A DNA stretch of 63,342 nucleotides from Xanthobacter autotrophicus (GTDB lineage Bacteria; Pseudomonadota; Alphaproteobacteria; Rhizobiales; Xanthobacteraceae), in contig NZ_JAIVFN010000010.1 in the NCBI RefSeq assembly GCF_030015065.1, positions 1 through 63,342 on the forward strand, in the 5' to 3' direction. The stretch's first letter is position 1; every line of letters begins with the position of its first letter. The notes below the pieces were generated by a model, which was given only the letters and a program-made list of their open reading frames with translations, was not told where the DNA came from and ran no database searches. Positions 7,669 to 30,085 of the stretch are shown here, in pieces. The position numbers and the translations under genes were made by a program.

Positions 7669-7671
7669 GCC

Positions 7672-8025
7672 ATGGAACTCCTCGTTGCCGCCGCCATCGG
7701 CATCCTCACCACGGCGGGCACCTACCTGATGCTGCGCGCCTATACCTTCCCGGTGATCCTCGGCCTCACCTTCCTGTCCTATGCGGTGAACGTCTTCCTG
7801 TTCGCCATGGGCCGGCTCGCCATCGACCGCCCGCCGGTGATCTCGCCGGATGCTCCGGGCTACACCGATCCTCTGCCACAGGCGCTCGTGCTCACCGCCA
7901 TCGTCATTTCCTTCGGCATGACCGCGCTCATCGTGGCGCTGGCGCTGCGCGGCTATCTGGAGACCGGCTCCGACCGCAGCACGCTCGACGCTCCGCGCCG
8001 GACCGACGCGGGAGGCGGGGCATGA
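7672..8025 (+). CDS. mrpC: Mrp antiporter subunit C
   Basis: 117 residues with three hydrophobic helices, related to NuoK. Recognisable segments are YTFPVILGLTFLSYAVNVFL and PLPQALVLTAIVISFGMTAL, the latter characteristic of MrpC/MnhC. It starts three bases after the mrpA stop behind a GGAGG ribosome site. Its stop overlaps the start of mrpD (ATGA), so C and D are translationally coupled. It forms part of the membrane core of the Mrp complex next to subunits A and D. Confidence 0.92.
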   Translation: MELLVAAAIGILTTAGTYLMLRAYTFPVILGLTFLSYAVNVFLFAMGRLAIDRPPVISPDAPGYTDPLPQALVLTAIVISFGMTALIVALALRGYLETGSDRSTLDAPRRTDAGGGA

Positions 8026-12405: not shown

Positions 12406-12951
12406 TCATCGGCGGGAATTGCCGACCTTGGCCGACATGGCCTTGACCGCGCGGTGCAGGAGCACGCGGATCGCGGTGGGTGACAGGCCCGAGCGCAGCG
12501 AAACTTCGGCCACCGACTGTCCTTCGATCTTCACCGTGCGCACGATGTCGCGGGAGCGCTGGGGCAGGCCGTCCAGGAGCCGCTCCAGGTCGAGCCGCGC
12601 GCTGGCAGGTGTCTCCTCATCCGCTCCGGCGATATCCTCGATCTCCTCCACCGGGCTTGATGCACTCCGGCGCGCCGCCCGGAGATGGTCAATGAGCTTG
12701 TATCGGGCGATGGCGAAGAACCAGGCCGCGAACGGCCGCTGTGGGTCATAGGTGGCGCGGCGTTCGTGGATGGCGATGAGCGTGTCCTGCACCAGATCTT
12801 CCACTGACGCATCCCGGCCGAGCCGACGTGCGAAATAGCTGCGGAGGGTCGCCGCCAGGGCCTTCAGGAGGGCGCGATAGGCTGCCTCGTCGCCCGCTTG
12901 GGCGGCGATCATCAGGGCGTCGAGTGGCGGGTTTGGCGCCGACACGTCCAT
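12406..12951 (-). CDS. ECF RNA polymerase sigma factor, NrsF-associated (module 1)
   Basis: 181 residues starting MDVSAPNPPLDALMIAAQAG; the ATG at 12951 is chosen for its GGAGCGGAG ribosome site and family-like length. Region 2 is YRALLKALAATLRSYFARRL through DLVQDTLIAIHERRATYDPQ and FAAWFFAIARYKLIDHLR. Region 4 is RSRDIVRTVKIEGQSVAEVS with the helix-turn-helix LRSGLSPTAIRVLLHRAVKA. It resembles Caulobacter SigF-type ECF factors. The cognate NrsF gene lies upstream on the same strand, the reverse of the sigma-first order in module 2. Confidence 0.88.
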   Translation of the reverse strand: MDVSAPNPPLDALMIAAQAGDEAAYRALLKALAATLRSYFARRLGRDASVEDLVQDTLIAIHERRATYDPQRPFAAWFFAIARYKLIDHLRAARRSASSPVEEIEDIAGADEETPASARLDLERLLDGLPQRSRDIVRTVKIEGQSVAEVSLRSGLSPTAIRVLLHRAVKAMSAKVGNSRR

Positions 12952-13023
12952 CTCCGCTCCAGATCCGCGCGCGACGAAGATCCCTACAGCCTGTGGGCCG
13001 CTGGAGACCGTCGCGCTTGGCCC

Positions 13024-13065
13024 AACGATCCAATGCCCAACGATCAAACTTATTCTAGAACGATC
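13024..13065. repeat. Three direct AACGATC repeats upstream of sigma gene
   Basis: AACGATC occurs at 13024-13030, 13039-13045 and 13059-13065, the first two within a longer CCCAACGATCCAATG-like repeat. They lie in the 162-base gap between nrsF and the sigma gene it precedes. They could be regulator half-sites or a chance expansion; nothing else identifies them. Confidence 0.35.
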
Positions 13066-13113
13066 GCCCTAAAACACAAGCGGGCCACGACCAATGAACG
13101 GCGCGGCCAAGCC

Positions 13114-13794
13114 TTACCACCGCAGCAGGCGAGGCCCCAGAAGCGCGCCGAGCACACCGGTGAGGGCAATGCCCGCGCCGTACCACAAGGTGACGAAGGG
13201 CAGCGCCGTCTCGTCGCAGGCGATCGCGTAGATGCTGGCGGAAAGCGCGCCGGCCGTCACGCCCACGGCGGCGCCTGCAAGGCGCAGCCGCGTGGGGGCC
13301 ATCTGGCGCATGGCATACATGCCGGCAGCCAGGATGGGCAGCGCGAGCAGCATGATGAGCGCCGTGCAGTGGTCCAGCGTGTGGCCGAGGAGCAGCGGCC
13401 GGATGGCGTCCCGCGGCGCGGTGGCGAGTTGGACGCTCGCGAGCAGGGCCATGGTGCCGGCCACGGCGATCCCCACCGCATAGCCGCGACCAGCCGCAGC
13501 ACCCGGCCGGCCCAGCCGGTCGACGGCCATCAGCCCGGCCACCGCGAGGCCGAACGGGAAGATGAGCTTGATCCAGAACGACGCGGTGGCGAGGGCCGAG
13601 GCCATGTCCGGGCGCAGGCCGAGCAGCTCCAGCATGGCCGCCGCGGACACCGCGCTTCCGAAGGCGAACGCCAGGGCCAGCGTGCGGCGCACGGATGGGA
13701 CGGGTGTGGCCGAAAGATCCCCCGCGAGAGTGTCGATCAGTGCATCCGTTGAGATGCCCTTTTGCCCTCCAGCGAAGCGCACGCCGTTGCGCAT
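13114..13794 (-). CDS. NrsF/DUF1109 membrane anti-sigma factor (module 1)
   Basis: 226 residues. A cytoplasmic N-terminus (TDALIDTLAGDLSATPVPSV) is followed by six membrane helices and the family end GPRLLRW. Two cysteines, Cys143 (LDHCTALIM) and Cys193 (YAIACDETA), stand 50 residues apart. In Caulobacter NrsF two cysteines at the matching places are needed to release the sigma factor when heavy metals or oxidants are sensed. The protein should hold the adjacent ECF factor at the membrane until its periplasmic face is modified. It is divergent from nothing: the CGNR gene upstream is on the same strand, about 150 bases away. Confidence 0.85.
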   Translation of the reverse strand: MRNGVRFAGGQKGISTDALIDTLAGDLSATPVPSVRRTLALAFAFGSAVSAAAMLELLGLRPDMASALATASFWIKLIFPFGLAVAGLMAVDRLGRPGAAAGRGYAVGIAVAGTMALLASVQLATAPRDAIRPLLLGHTLDHCTALIMLLALPILAAGMYAMRQMAPTRLRLAGAAVGVTAGALSASIYAIACDETALPFVTLWYGAGIALTGVLGALLGPRLLRW

Positions 13795-16796: not shown

Positions 16797-17438
16797 TCAC
16801 CAGCGCAGCAGCTTCGGCCCCATGGCCCAGCCGAACACGGTGACGAGGGCGATGCCCGTCGCGTACCACACGCCCACATAGACCGGCGTGTCGTTGAGGC
16901 AGTAGGAGGCGTAGGCGAGGGCGCCGATGCCGCCCGCAACCAGTCCCAGAAGCGCCCCGCAATAAGGCAGTTCGGTCGGCACCGCCTCGCGCAGCACCAG
17001 GGTGAGCAGCACCAGCGGGATGGCCGAGAGCAGCGGAATGGCCACCACGCACAGGCGCCACTCGCGGAACATGACCACCTCGTACCACCGCGACGGTGCA
17101 ATCGACGCAAGCTGTACGCCTGCCGCGAACCACACCAGCCCCAAAGGCACCAGCACGAACAGCAGCGTGCCCGAGCGGGTGTTGCCGGCGCGCGCGGCCC
17201 GGCGCAGCCCGTAGGCCGCGATGGCGACCACGGCGGCGAGAAAGCCGATCTTCAGGAAAAAACCGGGCGTGTGGACGGCCTCCACGATATCAGGACGCAG
17301 GCCGAGGGTGAGCATGCACACCAGCGCCGCCGCCGCCAGCGATCCGAACACGGCAAGCGCCACGATGCGATCCTGCCGGCGGGGGTCCACGGCCTCGACG
17401 CGGGTCGAGAGGAAGTCGATGAGGTCATCGGTATTCAT
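16797..17438 (-). CDS. NrsF/DUF1109 membrane anti-sigma factor (module 2)
   Basis: 213 residues, six membrane helices, N-terminal cytoplasmic stretch MNTDDLIDFLSTRVEAVDPR and family end GPKLLRW. Cys130 (EWRLCVVAI) and Cys180 (YASYCLNDT) are 50 residues apart, the same spacing as in module 1 and at positions almost identical to those I recall for Caulobacter NrsF (131 and 181). The start codon overlaps the stop of the sigma gene (ATGA-type), so anti-sigma and sigma are made in fixed ratio. Confidence 0.87.
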   Translation of the reverse strand: MNTDDLIDFLSTRVEAVDPRRQDRIVALAVFGSLAAAALVCMLTLGLRPDIVEAVHTPGFFLKIGFLAAVVAIAAYGLRRAARAGNTRSGTLLFVLVPLGLVWFAAGVQLASIAPSRWYEVVMFREWRLCVVAIPLLSAIPLVLLTLVLREAVPTELPYCGALLGLVAGGIGALAYASYCLNDTPVYVGVWYATGIALVTVFGWAMGPKLLRW

Positions 17439-17992
17439 GGGCGTGCCTCCGACAGCACGACAGCGAGCCGCTTCATGCCGCGATGTATTCCGATCTTCAC
17501 CGCCGCATCGGACATGCCGATGCGCGCGGCCGCTTCCGCGATGCTGAGGCCCTCGATCTTCACGTATTCGATGGGAAGGCGGAAATGCCGCGGCAGTGTC
17601 GCCAGCGCCCGATGCAGCTCACGCGATGTGTCCACGGCGGAAAACCCGTCGTGCTCGTCGGCGAGATCATCCACTTCGTCGATCTGGACATGGTGCAGGG
17701 CCCGGGCATTGGCCCTGAGATAATCGATGAGCTTGTAGCGCGCGATGCCGTAGGTCCAGGCCAGCACCGGCGACGAGCCGTCATAGGTGTGACGCTTGGT
17801 GTGCAGGACGAGGAGCGTGTCCTGCACCAGGTCCTCGGCCTCGTCCGTGCCCGCGCCGGAGCGACGGAGCCGGTTGCGGAAATAGCTGCGCAGGCGGCCG
17901 GACATGTGGTGCAGCAGCGCCCGGTGCGCCGTGGCGTCGCCGGACTGGCTCGCCTGCATCAGCGCCTCGAGATCAGGTTCAGGACTGGTCAT
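17435..17992 (-). CDS. ECF RNA polymerase sigma factor, NrsF-associated (module 2)
   Basis: 185 residues from the ATG at 17992, chosen because GGGGAA lies just upstream; an ATG five codons earlier lacks a site. Region 2: RSYFRNRLRR...DLVQDTLLVLHTKRHTYDGS and WTYGIARYKLIDYLRANARA. Region 4: LPRHFRLPIEYVKIEGLSIA and helix-turn-helix AARIGMSDAAVKIGIHRGMK. It is a paralog of the factor in module 1. The divergent gene at 18257 has a good ECF-type promoter and is the most likely visible target of one or both factors. Confidence 0.88.
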   Translation of the reverse strand: MTSPEPDLEALMQASQSGDATAHRALLHHMSGRLRSYFRNRLRRSGAGTDEAEDLVQDTLLVLHTKRHTYDGSSPVLAWTYGIARYKLIDYLRANARALHHVQIDEVDDLADEHDGFSAVDTSRELHRALATLPRHFRLPIEYVKIEGLSIAEAAARIGMSDAAVKIGIHRGMKRLAVVLSEARP

Positions 17993-18154
17993 GAAGTTCC
18001 CCCTCATGCGGACGTCTTCGCCCCGGGGTGGTGGTGTGTTACGTCGCGTTCGATCACGAGACTGCGAGCACGTCGGCTGGAAGCATCAGATGAGAGGAAA
18101 GACTTCCCTGCGGCTCGTTCTATTCCCTTCATTTTGATTGATTTACCGAGGCTC

Positions 18155-18672: not shown

Positions 18673-20670
18673 CTATGGCGCTGTTCCGGGCTGGGTCACC
18701 GCCACATAGATACGCCAGCGGCCCTCTTCCTCTTGCGCCAGGCGAAAGAGGGGACTTGCCGCGAACGGATCGCTTCGCCACGCCCCGTCCTGAGCCGTCA
18801 CCACCGCTGCCCCGCAGCCGAAGTTGAGGCGCATCTGGGCGAGGTCGGCGGGCACTCCGGTTCCGTCGAAGACACGGGCGAACAGGTTAGCGGCTTCCGC
18901 GCGCTGCTGCGGCGTCAGCGGTGCGAAGGCGAGCGCCATTTCGGGTCCGGCGAAACAGGACCGTCGCCGCGCCAGCAGGGCCCAGGACAGGTTGATGGGC
19001 CACGGCGTGAGCTGTTCCAGCCGGCCCGGATTGCTGGCGATGCGCACCTCCGCCGCCACCTCGCGGCGCACCGCCGCCCACAGGGCCGGATCCCCTGGAA
19101 GCGTCTCGCCATCGACGCTGCGCACGCCGCGCAGGTTGCCGGTCGCGAGCACCACGCTATCCGGCACGCCGGCGGCGATGAGCAGCGCTGCCGCTCCCAT
19201 CGCAAGCCATCGCTGGCGTTGCACGACGCTCGCGATCGCAGCGCCTGCGAACCCGGAGAGCACCAGCACAGCCGGCAACACGGCGCGCCAGCCGAGGTCG
19301 TTGTTCTCGCCGGCCGTGCTCACGAGAAAAGCACTGATGGCCAAGGCGCCAAGACTCAAGGTGCCGAGCGCGGCCGCGAGGCGGTAGGTACCGTGTCGCC
19401 TGCGAAGCGCCATGACGAGGCCGACGGATCCGGCGAAGGCGATGGCGGGAAGCTCGATGGGCAGCAGGAGCAGCCAATAGGCCGGGATGTCGAGGATCAT
19501 CCGCAGTCCGGCCGGAACGGCGGGGCCGAGCACGGCGAACGGCTCGATCCGGATCGGTGGCCCGCCCACGCGCGCCGCCGCGACTTGCAACTGCGCGAGC
19601 AGGATCGGCGCCACCAGCACGCCGGCGCCAAGGGCGGCAGCCGCCACCAGCGCCAGGAAGCGCCCGCGCCCCTCGGAAGGAGGGTGCGCGGCGAGCATCA
19701 GAACGGCAGCTCCGCCCGCCAGCGCGAAGGTGGCGCCGCCCACCCACAGGGAGCTGTCGAACCCCGCCGCGATCAGGAGTGCGAGCACCACCGCCGCTCC
19801 GGGCGAAGGCCGCGTGCGCATCTGTGCCAGCAGCCACACGGCGAGCACGACGCATGAGGCAGAGGCCACATGGTGCGGGCTCCAACTCGCCTGATACAGC
19901 ACGCCCGCGAGCCCCGTCGCCGGCTCGATCACCTGATCGACGCGCGCCGCTCCGAACAGGGACGCGAGGAGCGGCCTAAGGGAGCCGGAGGCCGCCGCAG
20001 CCAGTGCCAGCAGCGGTGCCATTGCGGAGGGGCGGAACCGGAAGGCGATGCCGGCCACCAGCGCCAGCGCGGCGAAGGCCGAGAGAAAGGTCGCCGCGGC
20101 ATCCGCCTCCCATCCCGTCGCGCCGGTGAGGATGACGAGCTGGGCCGCACCGAAGTGCCAGAGATAATAATAGGATATGACCCCCGGCGCGCCGCCGGCG
20201 CCGAACACGGGATTGGCCGGCGGCACCACCCCGTGGAGCGCGATCTCGTCGATGAGCGCGATCTTGGCGTGATCGTAGATGGGGGCCGCCAGCGCGATGG
20301 CGCCGTCCGCGTCCACCTTGGGCAGGATGGCGGCTGTGGGAATGCAGGCGAGCAGCGCGGCGACCGCCAAGGCGGGCAGGAGAAGGCGGGCTCCGGCGTC
20401 TGTCGTGGGAAGCGCCGTCCGTGCGGATCGCAGCAGCGGCGCGCCGACGCAGACCAGTGCGGTGACCAGCAGGATGGAGCTTAGCGACAGGCCGATGATC
20501 GGGGCAAGGGCGAGGACGGCCATGTTCTGTACCGCCCAGCCGAGCGCCGGTGCCAGCAGGATGGCCGGGACGCGGCTGATCATGACGGCGCGGGCGACGA
20601 GCCAGCCGGGACCGCACCACAGCGCGAGCCCGGCGAGGATCGAAAACAGGATATGCGCGGTCGAGACCAT
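18673..20670 (-). CDS. Large polytopic membrane protein, possible GT-C-type glycosyltransferase
   Basis: 665 residues with about 14 hydrophobic helices and a C-terminal soluble part of about 110 residues (from GVRSVDGETLPGDPALWAAV). The early loop PIYDHAKIALIDEIALHGVV with PPANPVF and the following YYYLWHFGAAQLV resemble the first extracytoplasmic loop of GT-C glycosyltransferases and DUF2298-like proteins, where an acidic residue is catalytic. I do not recognise a named family. It shares strand with the molybdoenzyme pair upstream, 38 bases away, and may be in the same transcript. Confidence 0.6.
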   Translation of the reverse strand: MVSTAHILFSILAGLALWCGPGWLVARAVMISRVPAILLAPALGWAVQNMAVLALAPIIGLSLSSILLVTALVCVGAPLLRSARTALPTTDAGARLLLPALAVAALLACIPTAAILPKVDADGAIALAAPIYDHAKIALIDEIALHGVVPPANPVFGAGGAPGVISYYYLWHFGAAQLVILTGATGWEADAAATFLSAFAALALVAGIAFRFRPSAMAPLLALAAAASGSLRPLLASLFGAARVDQVIEPATGLAGVLYQASWSPHHVASASCVVLAVWLLAQMRTRPSPGAAVVLALLIAAGFDSSLWVGGATFALAGGAAVLMLAAHPPSEGRGRFLALVAAAALGAGVLVAPILLAQLQVAAARVGGPPIRIEPFAVLGPAVPAGLRMILDIPAYWLLLLPIELPAIAFAGSVGLVMALRRRHGTYRLAAALGTLSLGALAISAFLVSTAGENNDLGWRAVLPAVLVLSGFAGAAIASVVQRQRWLAMGAAALLIAAGVPDSVVLATGNLRGVRSVDGETLPGDPALWAAVRREVAAEVRIASNPGRLEQLTPWPINLSWALLARRRSCFAGPEMALAFAPLTPQQRAEAANLFARVFDGTGVPADLAQMRLNFGCGAAVVTAQDGAWRSDPFAASPLFRLAQEEEGRWRIYVAVTQPGTAP

Positions 20671-20708: not shown

Positions 20709-21500
20709 TCACAGGCCGGCGAACCAGTTGAAGCCCTGCTTTTCCCAAAAGCCGAGCGGGTAGGTGTTGGTGACCTCGATGGCGCGGATCCATTTGGGGT
20801 TCTTGAACCCGAGCTTCACCGCTGTGCGCAGGCGCAGCGGAAAGCCGAAGGGATCGGTGATGGGCTCGCCGGCATATTTGGTGGCGAGGATGGTCTGGGG
20901 GTGGAGCGCCGAGGCCATGTCGATGCTCTCCATGTAGTCGTCGTTGCCGTAGAAGGCGATGTATTTCGCCGAGAGGTCGGCGCCGATGCGGGTCAGGAAG
21001 TCCTTCAGGTTCGGCCCGGACCACTGGCCGATATAATCCCAGCCTTCCACGCAGATGTGGCGGATGATCTCCTCCTGCTCGGGCAGGGCGTAGATCTGGT
21101 CCAGCGTCCACGGGCGCTTGTCCTGGATGAGGCCGGAGAGTTCCAGCTTCCAGGTGGAGACGTCCACCGGCTTCACCTCGTCGATCTCGTAATAGGCGTT
21201 GAAGCGCGGCGGCTTCACCACGAGGTCCGGGGAAAAGGTGGGGGCAAGCTTCTTCGGGTTGAACAGGGCGGCCTGCACGCCGTCGTTGAAGTCCGAAACC
21301 GTCTTCAGCACGCCCTGCACCGCGCCGCGATTGGAGATGTCGCAGCCGGCGAGCAGCGACAGGGCGCCGAGGCTGAAGGTGCCGCGCAGCACCTTGCGTC
21401 GGTCGATGGTCTCGATCAGCTTGCGGTTTTCGACGATGAGGCTCTGGTCGGGCGTGGTGACCGAGGACCGTCGCGGGGCGAAGGGATTGCGGAATGCCAT
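20709..21500 (-). CDS. Sulfite-oxidase-like molybdopterin oxidoreductase (MsrP/YedY superfamily)
   Basis: 263 residues. The molybdenum-ligating Cys is Cys150 in IIRHICVEGWDYIGQWSG, the signature of the superfamily; the fold continues with MESIDMASALHPQTILATKY and GFPLRLRTAVKLGFK. The export region is unusual: RRKVLRG (34-40) resembles a Tat twin-Arg motif and is followed by a hydrophobic stretch ending LLAGC (Cys53), a lipobox. It is therefore probably exported folded and may be lipid-anchored. The cytochrome b gene directly upstream should supply electrons. Members repair oxidised methionine or oxidise sulfite-like compounds; NrsF-type regulons are known to include such enzymes. Confidence 0.85.
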   Translation of the reverse strand: MAFRNPFAPRRSSVTTPDQSLIVENRKLIETIDRRKVLRGTFSLGALSLLAGCDISNRGAVQGVLKTVSDFNDGVQAALFNPKKLAPTFSPDLVVKPPRFNAYYEIDEVKPVDVSTWKLELSGLIQDKRPWTLDQIYALPEQEEIIRHICVEGWDYIGQWSGPNLKDFLTRIGADLSAKYIAFYGNDDYMESIDMASALHPQTILATKYAGEPITDPFGFPLRLRTAVKLGFKNPKWIRAIEVTNTYPLGFWEKQGFNWFAGL

Positions 21501-21512
21501 TTTCGCCTCCGG

Positions 21513-22181
21513 TCAATGGGGTGTGGTGGGCGCGGGTGCGCCCTTGGGATGGGGGTCTTCGGCGGGCACGGCCGGCCCGCCGGTGAGCATGGCGAGGATG
21601 GTGCGCGGCACGAGCAGCGCCAGCGCCACATGCACCAACATGAACCCGACGATGGCCGCCATGCCCAGGAAATGCGCGAGCCGCGCCCCCTGGAAGCCAC
21701 CGAACAGGCTGACGAGAAAAGAGAATTGCACCGGCTTCCAGATCGCGAGGCCGGAGACGACCTGCACGATGATGATCGCGATGACGCCCACGTAGAGCGT
21801 CTTTTGCACCGCATTGTAGTGGGTGAGATCCGCATGCTTCAGGCGGAAGGTCAGCGCCGCCACCATCTCGGCCACCACCTCGCGCGGGTGGATGGGGAAG
21901 AACAGGCGGGCAAAGCGCCCGGTGGTGACCCCGTAGGCGAGGTAGAACAGGCCGTTGAAGACCAGGATCCACATGCCGAAGAAGTGCCATTGCAAGGCAT
22001 GCTGCGCCCAGATGCCCAGCACGATTTCCTGCGGGAAGTGCAGGAAGCCGAAGATCACTTCATCATTATAGATCTTCCAGCCGCTGCCGATCATGATGAT
22101 CATGGACAGGGCGTTGGTCCAGTGCATGATCCGGATTGGAAGCGGATGCATGCGCCTTGTACGAGATGAGATGGGTTTCAT
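21513..22181 (-). CDS. Cytochrome b561-type membrane subunit for the molybdoenzyme
   Basis: 222 residues, four main membrane helices. Start ATG 22181 has GGAGG seven bases upstream; an in-frame TTG 18 bases earlier has none. Haem-ligand histidines are in RIMHWTNALSMIIM, HALQWHFFGMWIL, RLAHFLGMAAI and MLVHVALAL. The family (Ni/Fe-hydrogenase-type cytochrome b, PF01292) passes quinol electrons to periplasmic partners. The gene is 12 bases from the molybdoenzyme gene on the same strand. The C-terminal tail is Pro-rich. Confidence 0.85.
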   Translation of the reverse strand: MKPISSRTRRMHPLPIRIMHWTNALSMIIMIGSGWKIYNDEVIFGFLHFPQEIVLGIWAQHALQWHFFGMWILVFNGLFYLAYGVTTGRFARLFFPIHPREVVAEMVAALTFRLKHADLTHYNAVQKTLYVGVIAIIIVQVVSGLAIWKPVQFSFLVSLFGGFQGARLAHFLGMAAIVGFMLVHVALALLVPRTILAMLTGGPAVPAEDPHPKGAPAPTTPH

Positions 22182-22300: not shown

Positions 22301-22768
22301 ATGCGCGCAGTCCCCTTGCTCCTCACGCTTGCCCTCGTCGGCGCGGCGTCCGTCGCTTCCGCCGCCGCCGCGGGCGGGCCGCCCCATGCCAACATCCAGG
22401 CCGGCCCGGCGGACGACGGCCTCACCCCCGCCGAGCGCATGGCCGCGCGCTTCCCCCAGAAGGTGCGTGTGGGCGATCTCGTCGGGCTGCCGCTGCTCGA
22501 TTTCGACGACCGCACCCTGGGCTATGTGCGGGAGGTGGTGCGCACGCCGGAGGGCGGCATCGTGCTGGTGGTGCCCGTGGGGGGCTGGTTCGGCCATGGC
22601 GGCCGTCCGGTGGGTGTGCCCATCGAGACGGTGGCCATTCTCGGCCGGCAGATCGCTTTGCTCGACATTCCCCCCGCCGAGCTGCCCCGGCGGGCGACCT
22701 GGGCGGCGAAGGATGGCGCCCCCATCTCCGGAAGCGAGATCATCCGGATTGCCATCACTCGCAGGTGA
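22301..22768 (+). CDS. Exported PRC-barrel-like small protein
   Basis: 155 residues with a signal peptide (MRAVPLLLTLALVGAASVAS). The core KVRVGDLVGLPLLDFDDRTL, GYVREVVRTPEGGIVLVVPV and PVGVPIETVAILGRQIALLD has the strand pattern of PRC-barrel proteins. It diverges from the cytochrome b gene across an AT-rich 120-base gap and ends 26 bases from the converging mtnK. Partner and role are unknown; linkage to the exported molybdoenzyme suggests periplasmic or envelope service. Confidence 0.7.
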   Translation: MRAVPLLLTLALVGAASVASAAAAGGPPHANIQAGPADDGLTPAERMAARFPQKVRVGDLVGLPLLDFDDRTLGYVREVVRTPEGGIVLVVPVGGWFGHGGRPVGVPIETVAILGRQIALLDIPPAELPRRATWAAKDGAPISGSEIIRIAITRR

Positions 22769-22794: not shown

Positions 22795-24054
22795 TCACCG
22801 TCCCCCCATGGTTCGGGCGATGCGGTTCACCGCATCCACCGTGTCCATCTCGCGGCGGTTCACCGCCATGTGCCGGCCGAAGGCGAGCGCGGTGCGCTCC
22901 AGCGCCGCGCGCAGGCCGAGATCGGCAATGGCCTCGAACTCCGCCACATGGGCAAGCCCCAGGATGCGGCGGTGGATCTCGATTCCGGCAAAGCCCAGCG
23001 CGTCGCGCCACACCGTGTCGAGGTGCTGGGCGAGAGCGGCTTCGCTGCCCACCGCATCGCCTTGGTCCTCGAACAGGTCGCGCCCGCCGAGGATGCCTGT
23101 GCGCTCGGTGCGCCACAGGCGGGAGAATTCCGCCGCAAATACCCGCCAGCAGGTGTTCGTTGTGGCCAGCAGCTGATCGCCGACCCGGGCCGCGGTGCGT
23201 GCGTCGGCGCGGTGGGCCTTGCGGGTGAAATAGGCCATCCACAGGTGGGCGAGCAGCACGCCCACATCGAACCCCATGGGGCCGTAGAGGGCGAATTCGG
23301 CGTCGATGACGCGGGTATCATCGGCCGTCGCCATCACCGAACCGGTATGCAGGTCGCCGTGGAGCAGGGTCTCGGCGCAGGTGGCGAAGCGCGCCTTCAT
23401 CTCCTGCGCGGCGATCTTCAGGGCACGGTCGGCACGCACCGCCTGCACCGTCGCCTCAAGTCCGGGCGTGTGCCGGTTTAGCGGTGCGTCCTTGAACGGG
23501 TCCGAGAAGACCAGATCCTCCGTGATACCGGCCAGTTCGACGTTGCCGGAAAACAGGGCGAGGTCCGCCTTGCGGGCGGCGGTGGGCATGGACCAGTCGG
23601 AGCCGCGAAACAGGGTGCGGGCGAGATAGAGGCCGAGATGGTCGCCGAGGCGGGGCAGCTCCTCGCCTTCGATCAGGGCGCGGCGCACCACCTTGTGGGG
23701 CGTTAGATGTTCCATCACCAAGAGCGCCTGGGTGGGGGCGAACAGCTTGAGGTCCGGCACCCGGCCGGGATCGCGCGCGCCGAGCCGCTTCAGGGCTTCA
23801 TGCTCGAAGAAGGCGCGGTCCAGCGACATGGGCCAGCTCTCGCCCACCACGCGAGCATAGGGCAGGGCCTGCTTCACCACCAGCGAGCCTCTATCGCTCT
23901 CCACGATGAAGACGAGGTTGAGGTTGCCGTCGCCCACCTCGCGCACCCGCCATCCCGTTGCCGGGCCGAGGGGCGCGAGGAGTTCCACCCGCTCGCCGAG
24001 GCGCCGCGGCAGGCTCTCGCAATCGAGGGGATGGTAGGAGATGCGCTCGAGCAT
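22795..24054 (-). CDS. mtnK: S-methyl-5-thioribose kinase
   Basis: 419 residues, APH/kinase fold. The nucleotide-binding start is GDGNLNLVFIVESDRGSLVV; the catalytic loop is ETLLHGDLHTGSVM and the metal-binding motif VIDAEFALYGPMGFDVGVLL, all diagnostic of MtnK. The enzyme phosphorylates methylthioribose on the anomeric oxygen in methionine salvage. It can also phosphorylate 5-deoxyribose from 5'-deoxyadenosine in the DHAP shunt. No other salvage genes (mtnA, mtnB, mtnC, mtnD) are in the window. Instead it is the last gene of a run with a nucleosidase, glycosyltransferases and a radical SAM enzyme, which hints at use on a 5-substituted ribose made there. Confidence 0.9.
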   Translation of the reverse strand: MLERISYHPLDCESLPRRLGERVELLAPLGPATGWRVREVGDGNLNLVFIVESDRGSLVVKQALPYARVVGESWPMSLDRAFFEHEALKRLGARDPGRVPDLKLFAPTQALLVMEHLTPHKVVRRALIEGEELPRLGDHLGLYLARTLFRGSDWSMPTAARKADLALFSGNVELAGITEDLVFSDPFKDAPLNRHTPGLEATVQAVRADRALKIAAQEMKARFATCAETLLHGDLHTGSVMATADDTRVIDAEFALYGPMGFDVGVLLAHLWMAYFTRKAHRADARTAARVGDQLLATTNTCWRVFAAEFSRLWRTERTGILGGRDLFEDQGDAVGSEAALAQHLDTVWRDALGFAGIEIHRRILGLAHVAEFEAIADLGLRAALERTALAFGRHMAVNRREMDTVDAVNRIARTMGGR

Positions 24055-24071
24055 GGCGGTTCATCCCTTTG

Positions 24072-24938
24072 TCAGCGGGCGGCGGGCGCGTGCGCGTCCC
24101 ACGCCAAAGCGAAGGCTGTCGCCAACGCGATGGAGCGGCAGGCGCCGTTGTGGTCGCCCTTCTCGAAATCGCCATCCACGCAGCCGAGCTGGTTGGTGAC
24201 ATGGGCGAGGCACAGCACCGGCCGGTTCTGGGCGCGGGCGAAGGCGTAGAGGGCGGCCGCCTCCATCTCCACCGCGAGCAGCCCCTCGGCCTTGCGGCGG
24301 GCGATGGCGGCCTCCGTCTCGCGGAAGGGCGCGTCGGTGGTCCAGGTGGCGCCGGTCAGCACCGGGCCTTCGGCTTGGGCGAAGGCCCGCCGGGCCATGG
24401 TGATGAGATCGGGATCCGCCGCCGCAAAAGGCGAGGCCGGCAGGTAGTGATAGCTCGTGCCCTCGTCGCGCAGCGCCCGGTCGATGAGGACATGGTAGGA
24501 GGGCGGCGCGTGATCGGCGATCTGTCCGGCGGAGGCGATCGAGATCAGAAGCTCGCAGCCGCAGACGAAGGCCTGCTCGGCCACCAGTACGGAAAAGGAC
24601 GAGCCCACCGCATAGCCGACGATGCCGAAGGCAAGGCCCTCTTCCTCCCACTCCCACATGTCGGTGTGGTAGCAGGCCCAGACCGAGGAGCGGCGCGCGG
24701 CGCGATGGGCGCGCACATAGTCCACCATGTCGCCGTCGGGATCGAGCAGGACGATGCGCGGCACCGGCCCGGCCGCGAGCCCTTTCTGCCGTCGCGCCTC
24801 GCGCATCATGTTCTCGGGCCGGAACACAGACGGGGCGCGATGGTCGGCCCGCTCGATCAGCGGCAGAAATCCGGACGGAAGCGGCGAGCGCACCGGCCAT
24901 TTGGTGTCGTCGGGCTCGTGCAAAGGCTGTAGCAGCAT
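24072..24938 (-). CDS. Nucleoside phosphorylase/nucleosidase (AMP-nucleosidase-like)
   Basis: 288 residues of the PNP/UDP phosphorylase fold. The central sheet is RIVLLDPDGDMVDYVRAH and LAFGIVGYAVGSSFSVLVAE; the ribose-binding signature GLLAVEMEAAALYAFARAQ carries the conserved Glu pair; the catalytic acidic region is GCVDGDFEKGDHNG. The gene is 17 bases ahead of mtnK, so it likely yields the free 5-substituted ribose that MtnK phosphorylates, i.e. it may cleave methylthioadenosine, 5'-deoxyadenosine or an adenosylated product. Annotation pipelines often call this type AMP nucleosidase; that specificity is not visible. Confidence 0.8.
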   Translation of the reverse strand: MLLQPLHEPDDTKWPVRSPLPSGFLPLIERADHRAPSVFRPENMMREARRQKGLAAGPVPRIVLLDPDGDMVDYVRAHRAARRSSVWACYHTDMWEWEEEGLAFGIVGYAVGSSFSVLVAEQAFVCGCELLISIASAGQIADHAPPSYHVLIDRALRDEGTSYHYLPASPFAAADPDLITMARRAFAQAEGPVLTGATWTTDAPFRETEAAIARRKAEGLLAVEMEAAALYAFARAQNRPVLCLAHVTNQLGCVDGDFEKGDHNGACRSIALATAFALAWDAHAPAAR

Positions 24939-24947
24939 GGACGATTC

Positions 24948-25676
24948 TCACATCTTGTTCGGCGTGGCGGCGGGTCCGGACATCTGGGTCGCCACCCGCA
25001 GGAAGGTGGAGACGATGCGGGTCCCGGCGGTGAGCGTGGTGCCCAGGTTGCCGGCGACCTTGGAGAGGCCGCCCCGCCGGCGGCGGTAGGCGACCGGGAT
25101 CTCGACAATGGCGAGGCCGGCGCGGGCCGCGCGCATCTGCATCTCGATGTTCCAGCCGTAGGTCAGCTCCCGCATCCCGAGGCTGACGAGGGCGTCGCGG
25201 CGGATGGCGCGGAAGGTGCACATGTCGGAATAGGCGACGCCGTAAAGCGCCCGCATGCCGAGGCCCGCCGCGCGCCCCGCCGCCACCTGGTGCCAGGCCA
25301 TGCTGCCCGGCTCCCGCGCGCCGCGGGTGCGCGAGGCGATGGCGAAGTCCGCCGTGCCCGCTTTCAGCGGTGCCAAGAGCGCGGGGAGGAAGGCCGGGTC
25401 GTCCGCGCCGTCGGCATCCATGAAGGCGATGATGTCAGCGCCGCGCGCCTCGCACACGCCCTCAAGGCAGGCGCGGCCGAAGCCCCGGCCGGCGGCCAGC
25501 ACGGTGGCGCCGGCGGCAATGGCGATCTCGCGGGTGGCGTCGGTCGAGCCGCCATCGGCCACGATGACCTCGTCCACCGCGCCCACGGGGATCTCGGCGA
25601 GGGTCGCGCCGATGGCCTGCGCCTCGTTCAGCGTCGGAATGATGAGGGCGATGCGATGGGCTGCGGTTTCGGCCAT
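24948..25676 (-). CDS. Family 2 glycosyltransferase
   Basis: 242 residues starting MAETAAHRIALIIPTLNEAQ; the ATG overlaps the stop of the radical SAM gene. GT-A fold marks are VIVADGGSTDATREIA, the DXD motif FMDADGADDP and the late segment LTYGWNIEMQMRAARAGLAI. No membrane helices follow, unlike lipid-linked dolichol-phosphate-mannose relatives with extensions. The close coupling to the radical SAM gene says both act in one pathway. Acceptor and donor are unknown. Confidence 0.85.
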   Translation of the reverse strand: MAETAAHRIALIIPTLNEAQAIGATLAEIPVGAVDEVIVADGGSTDATREIAIAAGATVLAAGRGFGRACLEGVCEARGADIIAFMDADGADDPAFLPALLAPLKAGTADFAIASRTRGAREPGSMAWHQVAAGRAAGLGMRALYGVAYSDMCTFRAIRRDALVSLGMRELTYGWNIEMQMRAARAGLAIVEIPVAYRRRRGGLSKVAGNLGTTLTAGTRIVSTFLRVATQMSGPAATPNKM

Positions 25677-26743
25677 CACAGGCTCCATCTCAGGCCGCAA
25701 TTGGCGCAGGCGGCGGGCGGTGCCTCGGACAGCAGCCCATCGCGGAAGCCGCGATAGGCCTCGCCCTCCCAGATCTCGGACAGGCTTTGCGTGGTGGCGT
25801 CGCCCAGCGTGTAATTCTCGTAGCCACGCTGGGAGAAGGGGGCGATGCAGCAGGGCAGGGCGCGGCCGTTGGCGGTGAAGTACATCACCGTCCACGGACG
25901 CCGGCACATGGACCAGGGTGAGCCATTCTCTGCCCGCTTCAGGCTCATGCCCGGTTCGGCGGCGGCGCCAGACGCGGAGAAGACCATGCCCAGTGAGCGG
26001 GCGATCTCGGTCGCCTCGGCGATATAGCGGGCCTCGTCGGAATTGATCTGCTCGTAGAGCGCCTGGTCCGGCCGGGCGAGGCCGATGGCCTCCTCTTCGA
26101 AGAAGACGAGGCGCTGGAGATAGACTTCCTTGACGCCCAGCTCGGCGGCCACCTTCACGAAGGCCGGCAGCTCGCAAATGGTTTCCTTCAGCCCGGTGAG
26201 CCAGGCGGACACGCGGGGGTTGGCGTGGCCCTCGCGCTCCTGCAGTTCGCGGAAGGCGCGCACGTTCTTCAGGATGCGGTCGAAATAATTCTTGCCGCGA
26301 ATGGCGCGATAGGAGGCGGCATTGGACGCGTCCAGGGAGACGCGCAATTCGTCGAGGCCGGCCTCGATCATGGCGCGGCCGTTCTTCTCGTTCAGCACCG
26401 TGCCGTTGGTGTTGAACAGCACATAGGTGCCTCGATCCTTCAGATAACGGACCATGCGGTCGAGGTCCGGCACCAGCATGGGCTCGCCGATCCCGTGCAG
26501 CACGCAGCGTTCCAGGTCCGGGATCTGGTCCACGATGGAGGTGAACAGCTCCCAGCTCATGTCAGCCGGAGGCTCCAGCTCCTCATAGGTGCGCGGGCAG
26601 GTGGTGCACAAAAGGTTGCAGCGGTTGGTGGTCTCCAGATAGAGGCACACCGGCTTCTTCACCGGAACGCTGGTGCGGTTCGCCTCCGCCCGCTCGAAAT
26701 AGCGGCGGGCATCGAGGGTGCTTCCGGTGGTGATCACATTCAT
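25676..26743 (-). CDS. Radical SAM/SPASM enzyme
   Basis: 355 residues. The [4Fe-4S]-SAM motif CNLLCTTC has Cys42, Cys46 and Cys49 (CX3CX2C). Downstream 'HGIGEPML' is the SAM-binding GGE-type loop (here GIGEP) and NTNGT continues the barrel. The C-terminal third has SPASM cysteines: SMCRRPW, ALPCCIAPF and CANCGLRWSL. Such enzymes modify peptides, sugars or small molecules. No short precursor-peptide gene is seen nearby, while a nucleosidase and two sugar transferases are, so a sugar or nucleoside-related substrate seems likelier than a peptide (inference). Confidence 0.88.
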   Translation of the reverse strand: MNVITTGSTLDARRYFERAEANRTSVPVKKPVCLYLETTNRCNLLCTTCPRTYEELEPPADMSWELFTSIVDQIPDLERCVLHGIGEPMLVPDLDRMVRYLKDRGTYVLFNTNGTVLNEKNGRAMIEAGLDELRVSLDASNAASYRAIRGKNYFDRILKNVRAFRELQEREGHANPRVSAWLTGLKETICELPAFVKVAAELGVKEVYLQRLVFFEEEAIGLARPDQALYEQINSDEARYIAEATEIARSLGMVFSASGAAAEPGMSLKRAENGSPWSMCRRPWTVMYFTANGRALPCCIAPFSQRGYENYTLGDATTQSLSEIWEGEAYRGFRDGLLSEAPPAACANCGLRWSL

Positions 26744-26773
26744 GGGGCTTTGTCCGTCAAGGGGATGTGGCGC

Positions 26774-27601
26774 TCACGAGGCGCGGCGTTGCGGGATGTC
26801 GCGGGGCGCGCTACCGGGCAGGCCGAGGCGTTCGGCGAGGTCCTGCGTTGCGAGCAGCCGGCGCATCAGCCGCTCCGTATGGCGGGCGGTGCCGCGCTGA
26901 AGGCCCGACGTACCGAAGGGCGCGGTCTGGATGACCTCGCTGTGCAGCAGCCGCAGCGCGGTGGCATCGTCCACGTCGTACCAGGGCGGCAGCAGGTGAA
27001 CGTCGAGGCCGATCTCGGCGGCGCGCTCCAACGTCTGCTGGCAGACCCGCTCGGTGCTCCAGTCGATATCCTCGAACAGCCGCCAGCGCGGCGTCTTGAG
27101 GCCCAGCACGTAATAGCCGCCGTCGGTGGAAGGGCCGAGCACCGCCCGCTCACCCGGCTGCGCCAGAACGTCGGCCAGCTCGGCGAGGAGGGCAGGGGGC
27201 AGGGTGGGACTGTCGGAATTGAGCACCGCCGCTGCCGGATGCCCGAGGGCGAAGAGGTGGCCCATGGTGGCCCTAAGGCAGGCCCCGAATCCAGGCTGTG
27301 CCGCCTCGATGCGGCCGACGCCGGGCGGCAGCAGGGCATCGAAGAAGTGGCCCGCGCCCGCCGGTCCATAGGCCACATAAGGCGTGATCCGCGAGAGCGC
27401 GCCGGCGGCGAAGATGTTGCCGACGATGTCCTGCACGAAGGCGGTGTTGAAGGCGGCGGCCTCGTTGGGCGAAAGCGGCGGGCAGAGCCGCGTTTTGGTG
27501 CGCCCCGCCGCCGAAGCCTTCGCCATGACGGCAATGGCGCAGGAGGACACGCCGGGATTGGACACGCCGGAAGTAGAAACGCCGCCCGGTCCTTCAGTCA
27601 T
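26774..27601 (-). CDS. DUF2064/TIGR04282 GT-A-fold transferase
   Basis: 275 residues from ATG 27601 (MTEGPGGVSTSGVSNPGVSS); an upstream in-frame start would add 37 poor residues. Family marks are AIAVMAKASAAGRTKTRLCP, LNSDSPTLPP and LGPSTDGGYYVLGL. The fold is that of nucleotidyltransferases and GT-A glycosyltransferases. TIGR04282 members are named as arsenosugar or rSAM/selenodomain-associated transferases, and here the neighbour is indeed a radical SAM enzyme, but no arsenic methyltransferase is present. It could activate a sugar-1-phosphate or transfer a sugar. Confidence 0.82.
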   Translation of the reverse strand: MTEGPGGVSTSGVSNPGVSSCAIAVMAKASAAGRTKTRLCPPLSPNEAAAFNTAFVQDIVGNIFAAGALSRITPYVAYGPAGAGHFFDALLPPGVGRIEAAQPGFGACLRATMGHLFALGHPAAAVLNSDSPTLPPALLAELADVLAQPGERAVLGPSTDGGYYVLGLKTPRWRLFEDIDWSTERVCQQTLERAAEIGLDVHLLPPWYDVDDATALRLLHSEVIQTAPFGTSGLQRGTARHTERLMRRLLATQDLAERLGLPGSAPRDIPQRRAS

Positions 27602-27668
27602 CGCAAGCCCCCGCTCTGGTGTGTCGTTGGTCAGGAATTCGCTCGCAGTAGGCCGGGCGTTACATGCC

Positions 27669-28370
27669 TCACGAAGGAGTGAACGCAGGGCCTTCAGCCA
27701 GACCCCCGCCACCCTTCCCGGCGCCGTCTGCGCGCGTGCCGAGCCGCGCGCGCAGGTCCGCGACCTCCGCCTCCAGCGCCGCGATACGGTCGTCGCGCTC
27801 CTTCAGCGCAGCGGCGACGAGGGGCGCGTCGATCTTCTGGGGGATGTGCTGCGGACAGTTGATGTCCCAGGCGCGCACGCGGAACAGCAGCGCGCGCTCC
27901 GGCATGGCGCCGTAGTCTTCGGGCATCAGGCGGGCGACGAGATCAGGGTCGTTCTCCACGGCGCGAAGCTCGCCCCAGATCTTGATGCGGCGGCGATGGG
28001 TGTAATCCATGAGGAACAGGAAGGCCTTGCTGTTCTCGCTCAGGTTTCCCAGCGTCACATATTGGCGGTTGCCGCTGAAATCGGCGAAGCCCAGCGTTTC
28101 CTCGTCCACCACGCGGATGAAGCCCTTCGGCCCGCCGCGATGCTGCACATAGGGCTGGCCCGCCGCGTTGGCGGTGGCGAGATAGGCCGTGTCCATCTCG
28201 CCGAGAAAGGCGACGAGATCGGGCGTGATGCGGGTGCGGAAGCCGCCGCGCGCCTCGACGCGGGCATACATGGCGCGCGAGCCGCGCTCGGCCTGCGCCG
28301 CCTTCACCGCGGGCGTGAAGGCGATGTCGCTGGCAGGCGCCGGATGAAGCAGGTCTGACGGATCGGGCAT
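27669..28370 (-). CDS. Pyridoxamine-phosphate-oxidase-like flavoprotein
   Basis: 233 residues with the split-barrel FMN-binding fold: MDTAYLATANAAGQPYVQHR, GPKGFIRVVDEETLGFADFS and GNRQYVTLGNLSENSKAFLF. Residues about 190-215 (LKERDDRIAALEAEVADLRA) form a short coiled coil. These proteins bind FMN, F420 or haem and usually act as general reductases; the substrate is not evident. It lies 54 bases below the AhpD-like gene and 67 above the DUF2064 gene on the same strand, so it may be in the same operon. Confidence 0.82.
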   Translation of the reverse strand: MPDPSDLLHPAPASDIAFTPAVKAAQAERGSRAMYARVEARGGFRTRITPDLVAFLGEMDTAYLATANAAGQPYVQHRGGPKGFIRVVDEETLGFADFSGNRQYVTLGNLSENSKAFLFLMDYTHRRRIKIWGELRAVENDPDLVARLMPEDYGAMPERALLFRVRAWDINCPQHIPQKIDAPLVAAALKERDDRIAALEAEVADLRARLGTRADGAGKGGGGLAEGPAFTPS

Positions 28371-28424
28371 GGCAAATCCTCCAGAGGGGGCCGGGACCGC
28401 ATGACGGTCCCGGCCGATGGGATG

Positions 28425-28976
28425 TCAGGCCGCGCGCGGGGCGCCGGAGCGCACCACCGGGAAGTCGATCTCGGTTTCCGCGACGTTGTTGAGGTAGTTG
28501 GTGAAAATGTTCATGGCGACCTGCGCCACGATCTCCACGATATCGCCATCACCCAGCCCGGCCTGGTGGGCGTGGGCGAGGTCCGCATCGCTCACCTTGC
28601 CGCGGCTCGCGACCACCGCTCGGGCGAAGGAAAGCGCCGCCTCGGCCTTGCTGTCGGCGGCGCGGCCGGAGCGGGCGAGGCTGATGTCGGTGTCGCTGAG
28701 GCCGGCACCCTTGCCGATGAGCGAATGGGCGGAGAGGCAATAGTCGCAGCCATTCACCTCGGCCACCGCGATGGCGAGGCTCTCGCGGATCTTGGCCGGC
28801 AGCGCGCCGCCGCCGAGGGCGCCGGACAGGCCGATGAGGCCTTCGAGAGCGGCGGGCGAGCGGGCCGCAACCTTGAACAGGTTGGGCGTCGAGCCGAACT
28901 TGGCGGCGACGGCGGCGAGAAGATCCTTCGCCTTGCCGGTGGCAGTGGCGGGATCGAGGGCGGGAATGCGGCTCAT
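28425..28976 (-). CDS. AhpD-like carboxymuconolactone decarboxylase-family protein
   Basis: 183 residues. The peroxidase-type active site is EVNGCDYCLSAHS: Glu73, Cys77, Cys80 and His84. Members are alkylhydroperoxidase-like, reducing peroxides with thiols. It is the first gene of a tight minus-strand run ending at mtnK and faces a LysR gene across a 179-base gap, the usual layout for LysR control of the whole run. Confidence 0.87.
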   Translation of the reverse strand: MSRIPALDPATATGKAKDLLAAVAAKFGSTPNLFKVAARSPAALEGLIGLSGALGGGALPAKIRESLAIAVAEVNGCDYCLSAHSLIGKGAGLSDTDISLARSGRAADSKAEAALSFARAVVASRGKVSDADLAHAHQAGLGDGDIVEIVAQVAMNIFTNYLNNVAETEIDFPVVRSGAPRAA

Positions 28977-29155: not shown

Positions 29156-30085
29156 ATGGACCGCATCGACGCCATGACCGCCTTCGTCACGGCGCTAGAC
29201 GAAGGTAGCCTTGCCCGCGCTGCGCGCCGGTTGGGCCGCTCGCCGGCGGCGATCACGCGGGCGGTGGCGCAACTGGAGGAGCATTTGGGCACGCGCCTTC
29301 TCCACCGCACCACGCGCGCCCTGCACCTGACCCAGGCGGGCGAGCTTTATCTGGCCTCCTGCCGGGCCATCCTTGCCGATCTCGCCGAGGCGGACCTGCT
29401 GGCCGCCGGCGAGCGCACCGATCCCAGGGGCGTCCTATCCGTCACCGCGCCAGCCACCTTCGGCCGCCTGCACGTGGCGCCGGTGATCGAGGATCTCATC
29501 GAGGCGCATCCGGCACTGGAGGCGCGGCTGCTGCTGGTGGACCGGGTGGTGAACCTAGTCGACGAAGGCCATGACGCGGCGGTGCGCATCGGCCATCTGC
29601 CGGACTCAAGCCTTGTCGCCACGCGGGTGGGCGAGGTGCGGCGGGTGGTGTGCGCGAGCCCGGATTATCTCGCCGCCCGCGGCACGCCCACCGTGCCGGC
29701 GGACCTGTCGACGCATAGGGTCATCTCGTTTTCGCAGATCACGGAGAATGCGGTGTGGACCTTCGCGGCGGGGCCTTCGGGCGGAGCGCGCAAGCAGGTA
29801 AGCGTCGCGGCGTGCTTCACCGTCAATAGCGCGGATGCGGCCATCGCGGCGGCGTCGCGGGGGCGCGGCATCACCCGCGTGCTGTCCTATCAGGTGGAGG
29901 AGGCGGTAGCCGCCGGGCACCTGCGCCTGGTGCTGGAGGAGTTCGAGGGCGAGCGTCTGCCGGTGCACGTGGTCTATCCGGGCGCGCGCCTGCAGGCGGC
30001 GAAGCTGCGTGCCTTCGTGGATTTCGCGGTACCTCGCCTGAGGGCGCGGCTTGCAGAGCTGCCGGTCTCTTCGGGGCGGGCCTGA
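29156..30085 (+). CDS. LysR-family regulator facing the AhpD-led operon
   Basis: 309 residues. The helix-turn-helix is FVTALDEGSLARAARRLGRS with PAAITRAVAQLEEHLGTRLL; the effector domain follows from about 90 (LSVTAPATFGRLHVAPVIED). It is of the CrgA/AaeR-like clade in which regulators often control the divergent gene. The start ATG 29156 follows an AT-rich stretch. It likely senses a small molecule connected with the AhpD/PPOX genes. Confidence 0.87.
   Translation: MDRIDAMTAFVTALDEGSLARAARRLGRSPAAITRAVAQLEEHLGTRLLHRTTRALHLTQAGELYLASCRAILADLAEADLLAAGERTDPRGVLSVTAPATFGRLHVAPVIEDLIEAHPALEARLLLVDRVVNLVDEGHDAAVRIGHLPDSSLVATRVGEVRRVVCASPDYLAARGTPTVPADLSTHRVISFSQITENAVWTFAAGPSGGARKQVSVAACFTVNSADAAIAAASRGRGITRVLSYQVEEAVAAGHLRLVLEEFEGERLPVHVVYPGARLQAAKLRAFVDFAVPRLRARLAELPVSSGRA

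Follow-up and report, generated by a model that had tools for sequence, protein, structure and literature searches.

A pentose derived from methylthioadenosine (MTA) has been described in mycobacteria. As set out in the accessible part of PMC11127046, methylthioxylose (MTX) is made from MTA, carried by a decaprenyl-phosphate donor and added by a GT-C glycosyltransferase outside the membrane. In Mycobacterium tuberculosis, MtxS and MtxT are Rv0539 and Rv0541c (PMC8780516, accessible part), and a cited title names Rv0535, which is close in number to these two, as an MTA phosphorylase. The final sugar of mycobacteria is xylo-configured (PMC3229680, accessible part). According to the accessible text of Kelly et al. 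2024 (PMC11127046), it is unclear whether the addition of MTA-derived pentoses exists beyond the assembly of lipoarabinomannan, and no MTX-type pathway outside mycobacteria was found among the titles and abstract openings listed in our literature searches. Here, we analyzed a run of seven genes at positions 22795-28976 of a 63,342-nucleotide stretch from Xanthobacter autotrophicus (GCF_030015065.1, NZ_JAIVFN010000010.1, positions 1-63,342), hereafter called the window. The operon encodes a radical SAM/SPASM enzyme, a DUF2064 protein, a GT2 glycosyltransferase, a nucleoside phosphorylase-fold protein (NUC), a methylthioribose kinase and two accessory proteins. With a probability of about 0.55, it serves a methylthio- or 5-deoxy-pentose pathway, in which a 5-substituted pentofuranose is placed on polyprenyl phosphate and then attached, beyond the cytoplasmic membrane, to a glycan or lipid of the envelope. 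To our knowledge, lipoarabinomannan is not to be expected in the hosts of this operon.

Taking mycobacterial MTX as the precedent (from MTA via a polyprenyl-phosphate donor to a GT-C enzyme), the model that we favor is a pathway of the MTX kind for an MTA-derived pentose, which would include a radical SAM enzyme modifying the sugar. Like the MtxS/MtxT pathway, the operon would start from MTA, use a polyprenyl-phosphate donor and end with GT-C transfer outside the membrane. It differs in having a nucleosidase and a kinase in place of the phosphorylase, and in its central radical SAM/SPASM enzyme. The three-component extracytoplasmic pentofuranose systems of the Citrobacter O-antigens (GT136) similarly combine a polyprenyl-phosphate pentose synthase with a GT-C enzyme (PMC11127046, accessible part), but their starting compound is phosphoribosyl pyrophosphate, their synthase is of the UbiA type and their flippase belongs to the MATE family, whereas the operon has a GT2, a DUF2064 protein and no recognized flippase. 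The drd/dihydroxyacetone phosphate shunt, which salvages 5'-deoxyadenosine and MTA, shares the pairing of a nucleosidase with a methylthioribose-type kinase that leads to a ribose 1-phosphate (PMC6079011, accessible part). Unlike in the shunt, an MtnA-family isomerase was found in none of the 14 Xanthobacter genomes, and no aldolase was found among the scanned proteins of the run.

Computation showed which genes are present, how far they are conserved, that the membrane protein has a GT-C fold and that the salvage enzymes were not found; from this, we infer every substrate, the order of the steps and the radical SAM reaction. NUC would remove the base from MTA, or from a deaminated or 5'-deoxy relative, and the kinase would convert methylthioribose to 5-methylthioribose-1-phosphate. 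The DUF2064 protein may then add a nucleotide to the 1-phosphate to give a nucleotide sugar, and the GT2 would load the pentose onto polyprenyl phosphate. After flipping, the GT-C protein would pass the pentose on at the outer side of the cytoplasmic membrane. The radical SAM/SPASM enzyme may modify the sugar itself, either before it is loaded or afterwards, at one carbinol carbon (from ribo to xylo, the configuration of the mycobacterial sugar), and a molybdoenzyme and a cytochrome b561 encoded nearby may keep the methylthio group reduced. The substituent at position 5 is likelier to be methylthio, with 5-deoxy as the other possibility, since the kinase reaches a full score as a methylthioribose kinase. 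An earlier note on this DNA, made from its letters alone, had proposed the stretch from nucleosidase through kinase and DUF2064 to GT2 as a way to activate and transfer a 5-substituted ribose. This part of the proposal is supported and stands better than salvage, and the GT-C protein completes the route.

The conservation of the core was analyzed with a radical SAM profile built from 12 orthologues (A1) and with two exact peptide patterns, which gave 148 relatives in named genomes. Locus counts refer to the best 80 of these 148, and diverged relatives were missed by the exact patterns. DUF2064 and GT2 genes were located near the radical SAM gene at 77 and 78 loci, respectively. Where found, the DUF2064 gene always preceded the radical SAM gene on the same strand, at a distance of no more than 2.6 kb (77/77), and the GT2 gene was directly downstream of the radical SAM gene in 76 of the 78 cases. 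This grouping of the core genes is not due to chance. The other neighbors were shared unequally, namely a GT87-type protein at 54 loci, NUC at 34, cytochrome b561 at 31, the molybdoenzyme at 30 and the kinase at 6. By the test proposed in the earlier note, whether five of the genes travel together, the radical SAM, DUF2064 and GT2 genes nearly always co-occur, whereas the nucleosidase joins them at fewer loci and the kinase was confined to Xanthobacter loci.

The hosts of the loci were Xanthobacter, Methylobacterium, Bradyrhizobium, Bosea, Beijerinckia, Sphingomonas, Roseomonas, Lichenifustis and metagenome-assembled genomes (MAGs). The trait is patchy, with a close radical SAM orthologue (at least 77% identity) in 12 of 61 relatives. 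Among 150 genomes drawn from the order of the window, only the window's own carried the radical SAM gene, leaving 149 core-free genomes as background. The core was also located on plasmids of two Methylobacterium species, and a plasmid of Miltoncostaea (Actinomycetota) encodes a radical SAM protein with 44-45% identity in a gene run with core relatives. The Miltoncostaea run includes a DUF2064::NUDIX fusion, a GT87::GT2 fusion, a carboxymuconolactone decarboxylase (CMD) protein and DoxX. The GT87::GT2 fusion links both glycosyltransferases to a single route.

Judged by its sequence, the kinase of the run is a full-scoring S-methyl-5-thioribose kinase, with a score well beyond the TIGR01767 cut-off (Table 1). 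The regions HGDLHTGS and IDxEF align with 2pyw, a solved relative listed as uncharacterized, and the methylthioribose kinase 2olc was matched at 254 bits. The kinase was present in all nine Xanthobacter genomes with the radical SAM orthologue, in none of the five without it, and in none of 23 other relatives, of which 13 have MtnA. MTA phosphorylase, which forms the product of the kinase directly, was, like MtnA, not found in any of the 14 Xanthobacter genomes, and the only kinase found in Xanthobacter sits in the operon. Since neither salvage enzyme was found in these genomes and the kinase never occurs in them without the radical SAM gene, the kinase in Xanthobacter does not serve salvage. 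The plainer reading of the earlier note, salvage of 5'-deoxyadenosine or MTA, is thus contradicted for the kinase. In the sample of non-Xanthobacter carriers (n = 45, not counting G188 and G189, which are repeats of two Xanthobacter genomes), 43 have MTA phosphorylase and 43 have MtnA, one of the latter as two partial pieces. Hence, nearly every tested carrier encodes a route to a 5-substituted ribose-1-phosphate, by phosphorylase or by kinase. The MTA phosphorylase pattern, absent in Xanthobacter and present in the other carriers, was expected after the MtnA result and was not written down beforehand.

The proposed final transferase, a 665-aa protein, showed no match in Pfam or NCBIfam. Its AlphaFold model (pLDDT 77.7, pTM 0.82) matched AftA (8if8, E 5.5e-8) and ArnT (5ezm, E 4e-6) in Foldseek, and also DPY19 and PglB. 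On this predicted fold, the protein is a GT-C glycosyltransferase. The TM-scores were modest (0.34-0.48, by query), so that the donor is not readable from the fold. AftA and ArnT use pentose polyprenyl phosphates. The 665-aa protein was found at 16 loci and never together with the GT87-type protein; 10 loci had neither, most of them on contigs shorter than 12 kb. No GT87-type gene was found near the core in the window. The two membrane proteins thus replace each other in the locus. The GT87 Pfam model was scored on two related proteins (25.7 and 32.4 bits, cut-off 25), and the GT87-type proteins at the 54 loci were assigned by similarity.

For the radical SAM enzyme, sequence rows were extracted from 79 of the 80 loci. 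All 81 rows retain the CX3CX2C motif, and 80 or 81 of them the five C-terminal SPASM cysteines; the SPASM domain PF13186 was matched at 55.3 bits. The solved chain nearest to the profile was BtrN (52.8 bits, two aligned domains), with GDGT synthase, PqqE, cytosylglucuronate decarboxylase (weaker than BtrN) and MoaA as further relatives. Despite this likeness, the operon's enzyme has 355 aa as compared to 269-270 aa in BtrN, and the gene context differs. BtrN is a 2-deoxy-scyllo-inosamine dehydrogenase. No sugar epimerase was recognized among the core proteins scanned. Since the xylo-configured end sugar of mycobacteria needs an epimerization and no other candidate was recognized, we assign this step to the radical SAM enzyme. 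Its identification as a sugar epimerase or dehydrogenase is tentative, with odds clearly below even.

The DUF2064 protein scored 135.1 bits with TIGR04282, barely above the cut-off of 134, and weakly matched two nucleotidyltransferase models, CofC (22.3 bits) and MobA-like (20.5 bits). No paper on DUF2064 turned up in our literature search. Rv0540 is presumably also a DUF2064 protein. The TIGR04282 name, "arsenosugar biosynthesis glycosyltransferase", is an annotation and may mislead; DUF2064 proteins of that name occur in loci where no scanned radical SAM protein reached the ArsS cut-off. The best NCBIfam match of the GT2 was AglJ (106.7 bits, cut-off 325), and the protein resembles AglJ and dolichyl-phosphate transferases at scores below the cut-offs of those models.

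NUC was identified in 38 of 51 core genomes as compared to 8 of the 149 core-free genomes. The core genomes represent 50 of the 80 loci plus the genome of the window, and are mostly RefSeq (NZ_) records with selected MAGs. The position of NUC relative to the core varies, being after GT2, before DUF2064 or inside a block with SelD. The NUC model (pLDDT 84.6) has the fold of purine nucleoside phosphorylase (PNP) and uridine phosphorylase, with the Thermus PNP 1odi as the best PDB match. Rows were extracted from 32 of the 34 NUC loci (one row of 89 aa), and Asn249 is invariant in all 25 rows of alignment A2, which comprises 24 extracted rows and the window protein. Methylthioinosine is a possible substrate of NUC, and a methylthioinosine route has a precedent in Pseudomonas.

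Several observations weigh against the proposed pathway. The likeness to MtxS and MtxT is at the level of family for the GT2 (PF00535) and of fold for the GT-C protein. NUC is absent from 13 of the 51 core genomes. At the position of its Asn249, three of the four DeoD-type chains listed have Asp, with Asn in 3uay and 1odi. The Thermus PNP presumably favors 6-oxopurines, and this would make adenine nucleosides less likely as substrates. In addition, the Arg of the PNP motif IRVG is missing from NUC, so that a phosphorylase and a hydrolase are both possible. Two MAG carriers, G224 and G231, have neither MTA phosphorylase nor the kinase; MtnA is absent from G224 and G234, and G231 has only the two partial pieces. 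In ten carriers outside Xanthobacter, a kinase is encoded at another place in the genome. MTA phosphorylase is a common enzyme in any case, which makes its presence in the other carriers weak evidence, and the kinase difference within Xanthobacter may reflect a single event. The lower of the two GT87 scores is marginal, and no flippase for a carrier-linked sugar was recognized. Finally, SPASM enzymes mostly act on peptides.

Among the other explanations, one that we consider unlikely is that the target of the radical SAM enzyme is a sugar within a polyprenyl-linked glycan, with NUC and the kinase merely disposing of 5'-deoxyadenosine and no pentose entering the product. NUC and the kinase are indeed less conserved than DUF2064 and GT2, and radical SAM chemistry releases toxic 5'-deoxyadenosine as a by-product, which drd salvage clears with a nucleosidase and a kinase (PMC6079011, accessible part). 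However, drd salvage needs an MtnA-like isomerase, and its absence from the 14 Xanthobacter genomes would make the kinase product a dead end. Moreover, the X. autotrophicus genome has 19 Radical_SAM matches and thus other sources of 5'-deoxyadenosine, yet the core-free Xanthobacter genomes are without the kinase. The scheme of the earlier note, by the logic of HpnH/HpnG and ArsS, was that an acceptor receives 5'-deoxyadenosyl from the radical SAM enzyme and loses the base through NUC, after which the kinase, DUF2064 and GT2 process the acceptor-ribose further. These systems also place a radical SAM gene beside a nucleoside phosphorylase-fold gene, and TIGR04282 is shared with arsenosugar clusters by name. 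The joint occurrence of radical SAM, nucleosidase, GT2 and a DUF2064 protein labelled as an arsenosugar glycosyltransferase agrees with this, as does the lack of MtnA in Xanthobacter, by which the 1-phosphate would not be salvaged. The scores are nonetheless far below the cut-offs for HpnH (38.5 bits, cut-off 225.05) and HpnG (23.7 bits, cut-off 187.1), and ArsS was not among the 25 of 45 matching families listed for the radical SAM enzyme. The conserved SPASM cysteines and the proximity to BtrN also speak against adenosylation, and adenine removal would be obligatory, yet NUC is not found in all core genomes. The adenosylation step is therefore not supported and the scheme is distinctly unlikely, leaving the interpretation of the earlier note as a whole partly supported.

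The similarity to BtrN could also indicate a special sugar that is not derived from MTA, such as an amino or keto sugar that, along the lines of butirosin biosynthesis, would arise from dehydrogenation by the radical SAM enzyme and from transamination. A pyridoxal phosphate-dependent aminotransferase gene does follow GT2 directly on two Methylobacterium plasmids (L172:15740-16966 and L173:15768-16988). This arrangement was seen only on those plasmids, with the other loci not searched for aminotransferases; the one aminotransferase scanned was nearest to amino-acid-type enzymes, and both the kinase and its distribution are left unexplained. We regard such a sugar as more unlikely again. Highly improbable is a role of the radical SAM/SPASM enzyme in maturing a peptide or a metalloenzyme such as the neighboring molybdoenzyme. 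The best NCBIfam names were the tungsten-enzyme maturase TIGR04317 (148.8 bits) and TIGR04311 (127.4 bits), and a molybdoenzyme gene lies near the radical SAM gene at 30 loci, but both scores are far below the cut-offs (380 and 400). The remaining 50 loci, of which some are on short contigs, keep the glycosyltransferases although no molybdoenzyme was found there. The earlier note had named a peptide-modifying SPASM enzyme with a precursor peptide as the case against its scheme. The SPASM domain is present, but among 1080 small open reading frames within 3.5 kb of the gene across the 80 loci, the 15 with the widest sharing all came from Bradyrhizobium-type loci. Peptide maturation was rejected, as no precursor peptide common to loci of other types was seen.

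The layout given in the earlier note was borne out on the coordinates (Table 1), with seven genes on the same strand facing a LysR gene, gaps of at most 67 bases and a 4-base overlap of the radical SAM and GT2 genes. The largest gap of 67 bases applies with ATG at 27601 as the DUF2064 start, which was chosen over GTG at 27712; the gene probably starts at 27601. With GTG as the start, it would overlap the flavoprotein gene by 44 bases. Beyond the PRC-barrel gene on the opposite strand, the conserved neighbors continue with cytochrome b561, the molybdopterin oxidoreductase and the GT-C membrane protein.

Table 1. Genes in and around the operon (window positions), and the loci (L numbers) of two neighborhood types
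Feature	Position or loci	Strand	Support
CMD/AhpD-like protein, first gene, accessory	28425-28976	-	PF02627, 52.7 bits; 5/80 loci
PNPOx-like flavin mononucleotide (FMN) flavoprotein, accessory	27669-28370	-	PF01243, 45.4 bits; 6/80 loci, all Xanthobacter
DUF2064 protein, proposed nucleotide-sugar maker	26774-27601	-	PF09837, 89.9 bits (cut-off 25.8); 77/80 loci
Radical SAM/SPASM enzyme, proposed sugar modifier	25676-26743	-	PF04055 + PF13186
GT2, polyprenyl-phosphate sugar synthase type (AglJ-like)	24948-25679	-	PF00535, 80 bits; 78/80 loci
Nucleoside phosphorylase-fold protein (NUC)	24072-24938	-	PF01048, 98.3 bits; 34/80 loci
Methylthioribose kinase	22795-24054	-	TIGR01767, 469.3 bits (cut-off 275); 6/80 loci
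PRC-barrel protein, conserved neighbor	22301-22768	+	PF05239, 30.9 bits; 25/80 loci
Cytochrome b561, proposed electron donor of molybdoenzyme	21513-22181	-	PF01292, 88.9 bits (21513-22178); 31/80 loci
Molybdopterin oxidoreductase, MsrP-like	20709-21500	-	PF00174, 99.2 bits; 30/80 loci
665-aa GT-C membrane glycosyltransferase	18673-20670	-	predicted fold; 16/80 loci
LysR, candidate regulator of run	29156-30085	+	PF00126 + PF03466
SelD-type block, within 10 kb of radical SAM gene	L073, L074, L080, L081, L093, L094, L100, L117, L120-L122, L127-L129, L132		
Rv1679/Rv1681-type loci	L076-L078, L091, L092, L095, L097-L099, L101-L104, L109-L111, L113, L114; L174:5710-14909 (Miltoncostaea)		

The loci were of several types, namely 30 with the molybdoenzyme and cytochrome b, 15 with SelD or a putative selenate transporter, 18 with relatives of Rv1681 and FadE16, one mixed (L119) and 16 with no type marker seen, several of the latter being on short contigs. 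The molybdoenzyme scored 79.7 bits with the MsrP model, below the cut-off of 207. A lipobox-like start, seen by eye, suggests that it is probably exported, and our guess is that it reduces a methylsulfoxide on the finished sugar. The SelD-type block beside the core consists of a DoxX-like protein, SelD or an NADH-oxidoreductase::SelD fusion, and a PhnD/C/E-type transporter with TIGR04553 (putative selenate), together with another radical SAM protein of the SPASM type and, frequently, a methyltransferase. SelD was found in 30 of the 51 core genomes and TIGR04553 above its cut-off in 17 of them; selenium is thus not obligatory and was rejected as the core chemistry. Relatives of Rv1679 (FadE16) and Rv1681 lie beside the core in the 18 Bradyrhizobium-type loci, where the binding protein was assigned by clustering only, and in Miltoncostaea, where an Rv1680-like protein is also encoded and all three relatives score below the cut-offs of their models. 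Two pairs of ECF (extracytoplasmic function) sigma factor and NrsF genes lie near the operon (window 16797-18007 and 12406-13794), and an NrsF gene directly precedes DUF2064 in L129.

Short remnants of the NUC gene were seen before DUF2064 in Bradyrhizobium-type loci (L098 and L099:7751-7894), as if the gene were in the course of being lost in place. An Arg-to-Asp change in NUC was considered as an explanation for the presence of the kinase and rejected, as Asp or Glu also occupies this place in the kinase-less loci L060, L068, L070 and L083. The eight core-free NUC loci matched no reference family besides NUC, save for a weak ABC ATPase in L145, and no shared neighbor of NUC was seen by eye in five of them. 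A pathway role was likewise rejected for the kinase of the ten non-Xanthobacter carriers, in which MtnA is encoded elsewhere in all ten genomes and ordinary salvage is likely; one MtnA query found no MtnA within the approximately 15 kb around these kinase genes. In three Bradyrhizobium loci (L177, L179 and L182, near 6800-8300), the kinase gene adjoins, by eye, RNase J-like and VOC family-like genes, away from MtnA.

Taken in its widest form, the proposal is that an MTA-derived methylthio-pentose glycan pathway extends far beyond mycobacteria, with a radical SAM/SPASM enzyme reshaping the pentose, and that a methylseleno version may exist in the loci with SelD and the putative selenate transporter. 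We consider this possible, at somewhat less than even odds. The operon and its relatives point to Xanthobacter, Methylobacterium and Bradyrhizobium as organisms in which MTA-derived pentoses beyond lipoarabinomannan could be tested, and they link the Rv1679-Rv1681 gene family to the pathway by gene neighborhood only. If the proposed pathway is correct, MTA, which is normally salvaged, would have a biosynthetic fate, the DUF2064 family would have a likely function, and the radical SAM enzyme would be a candidate for acting on a carrier-linked or nucleotide sugar.

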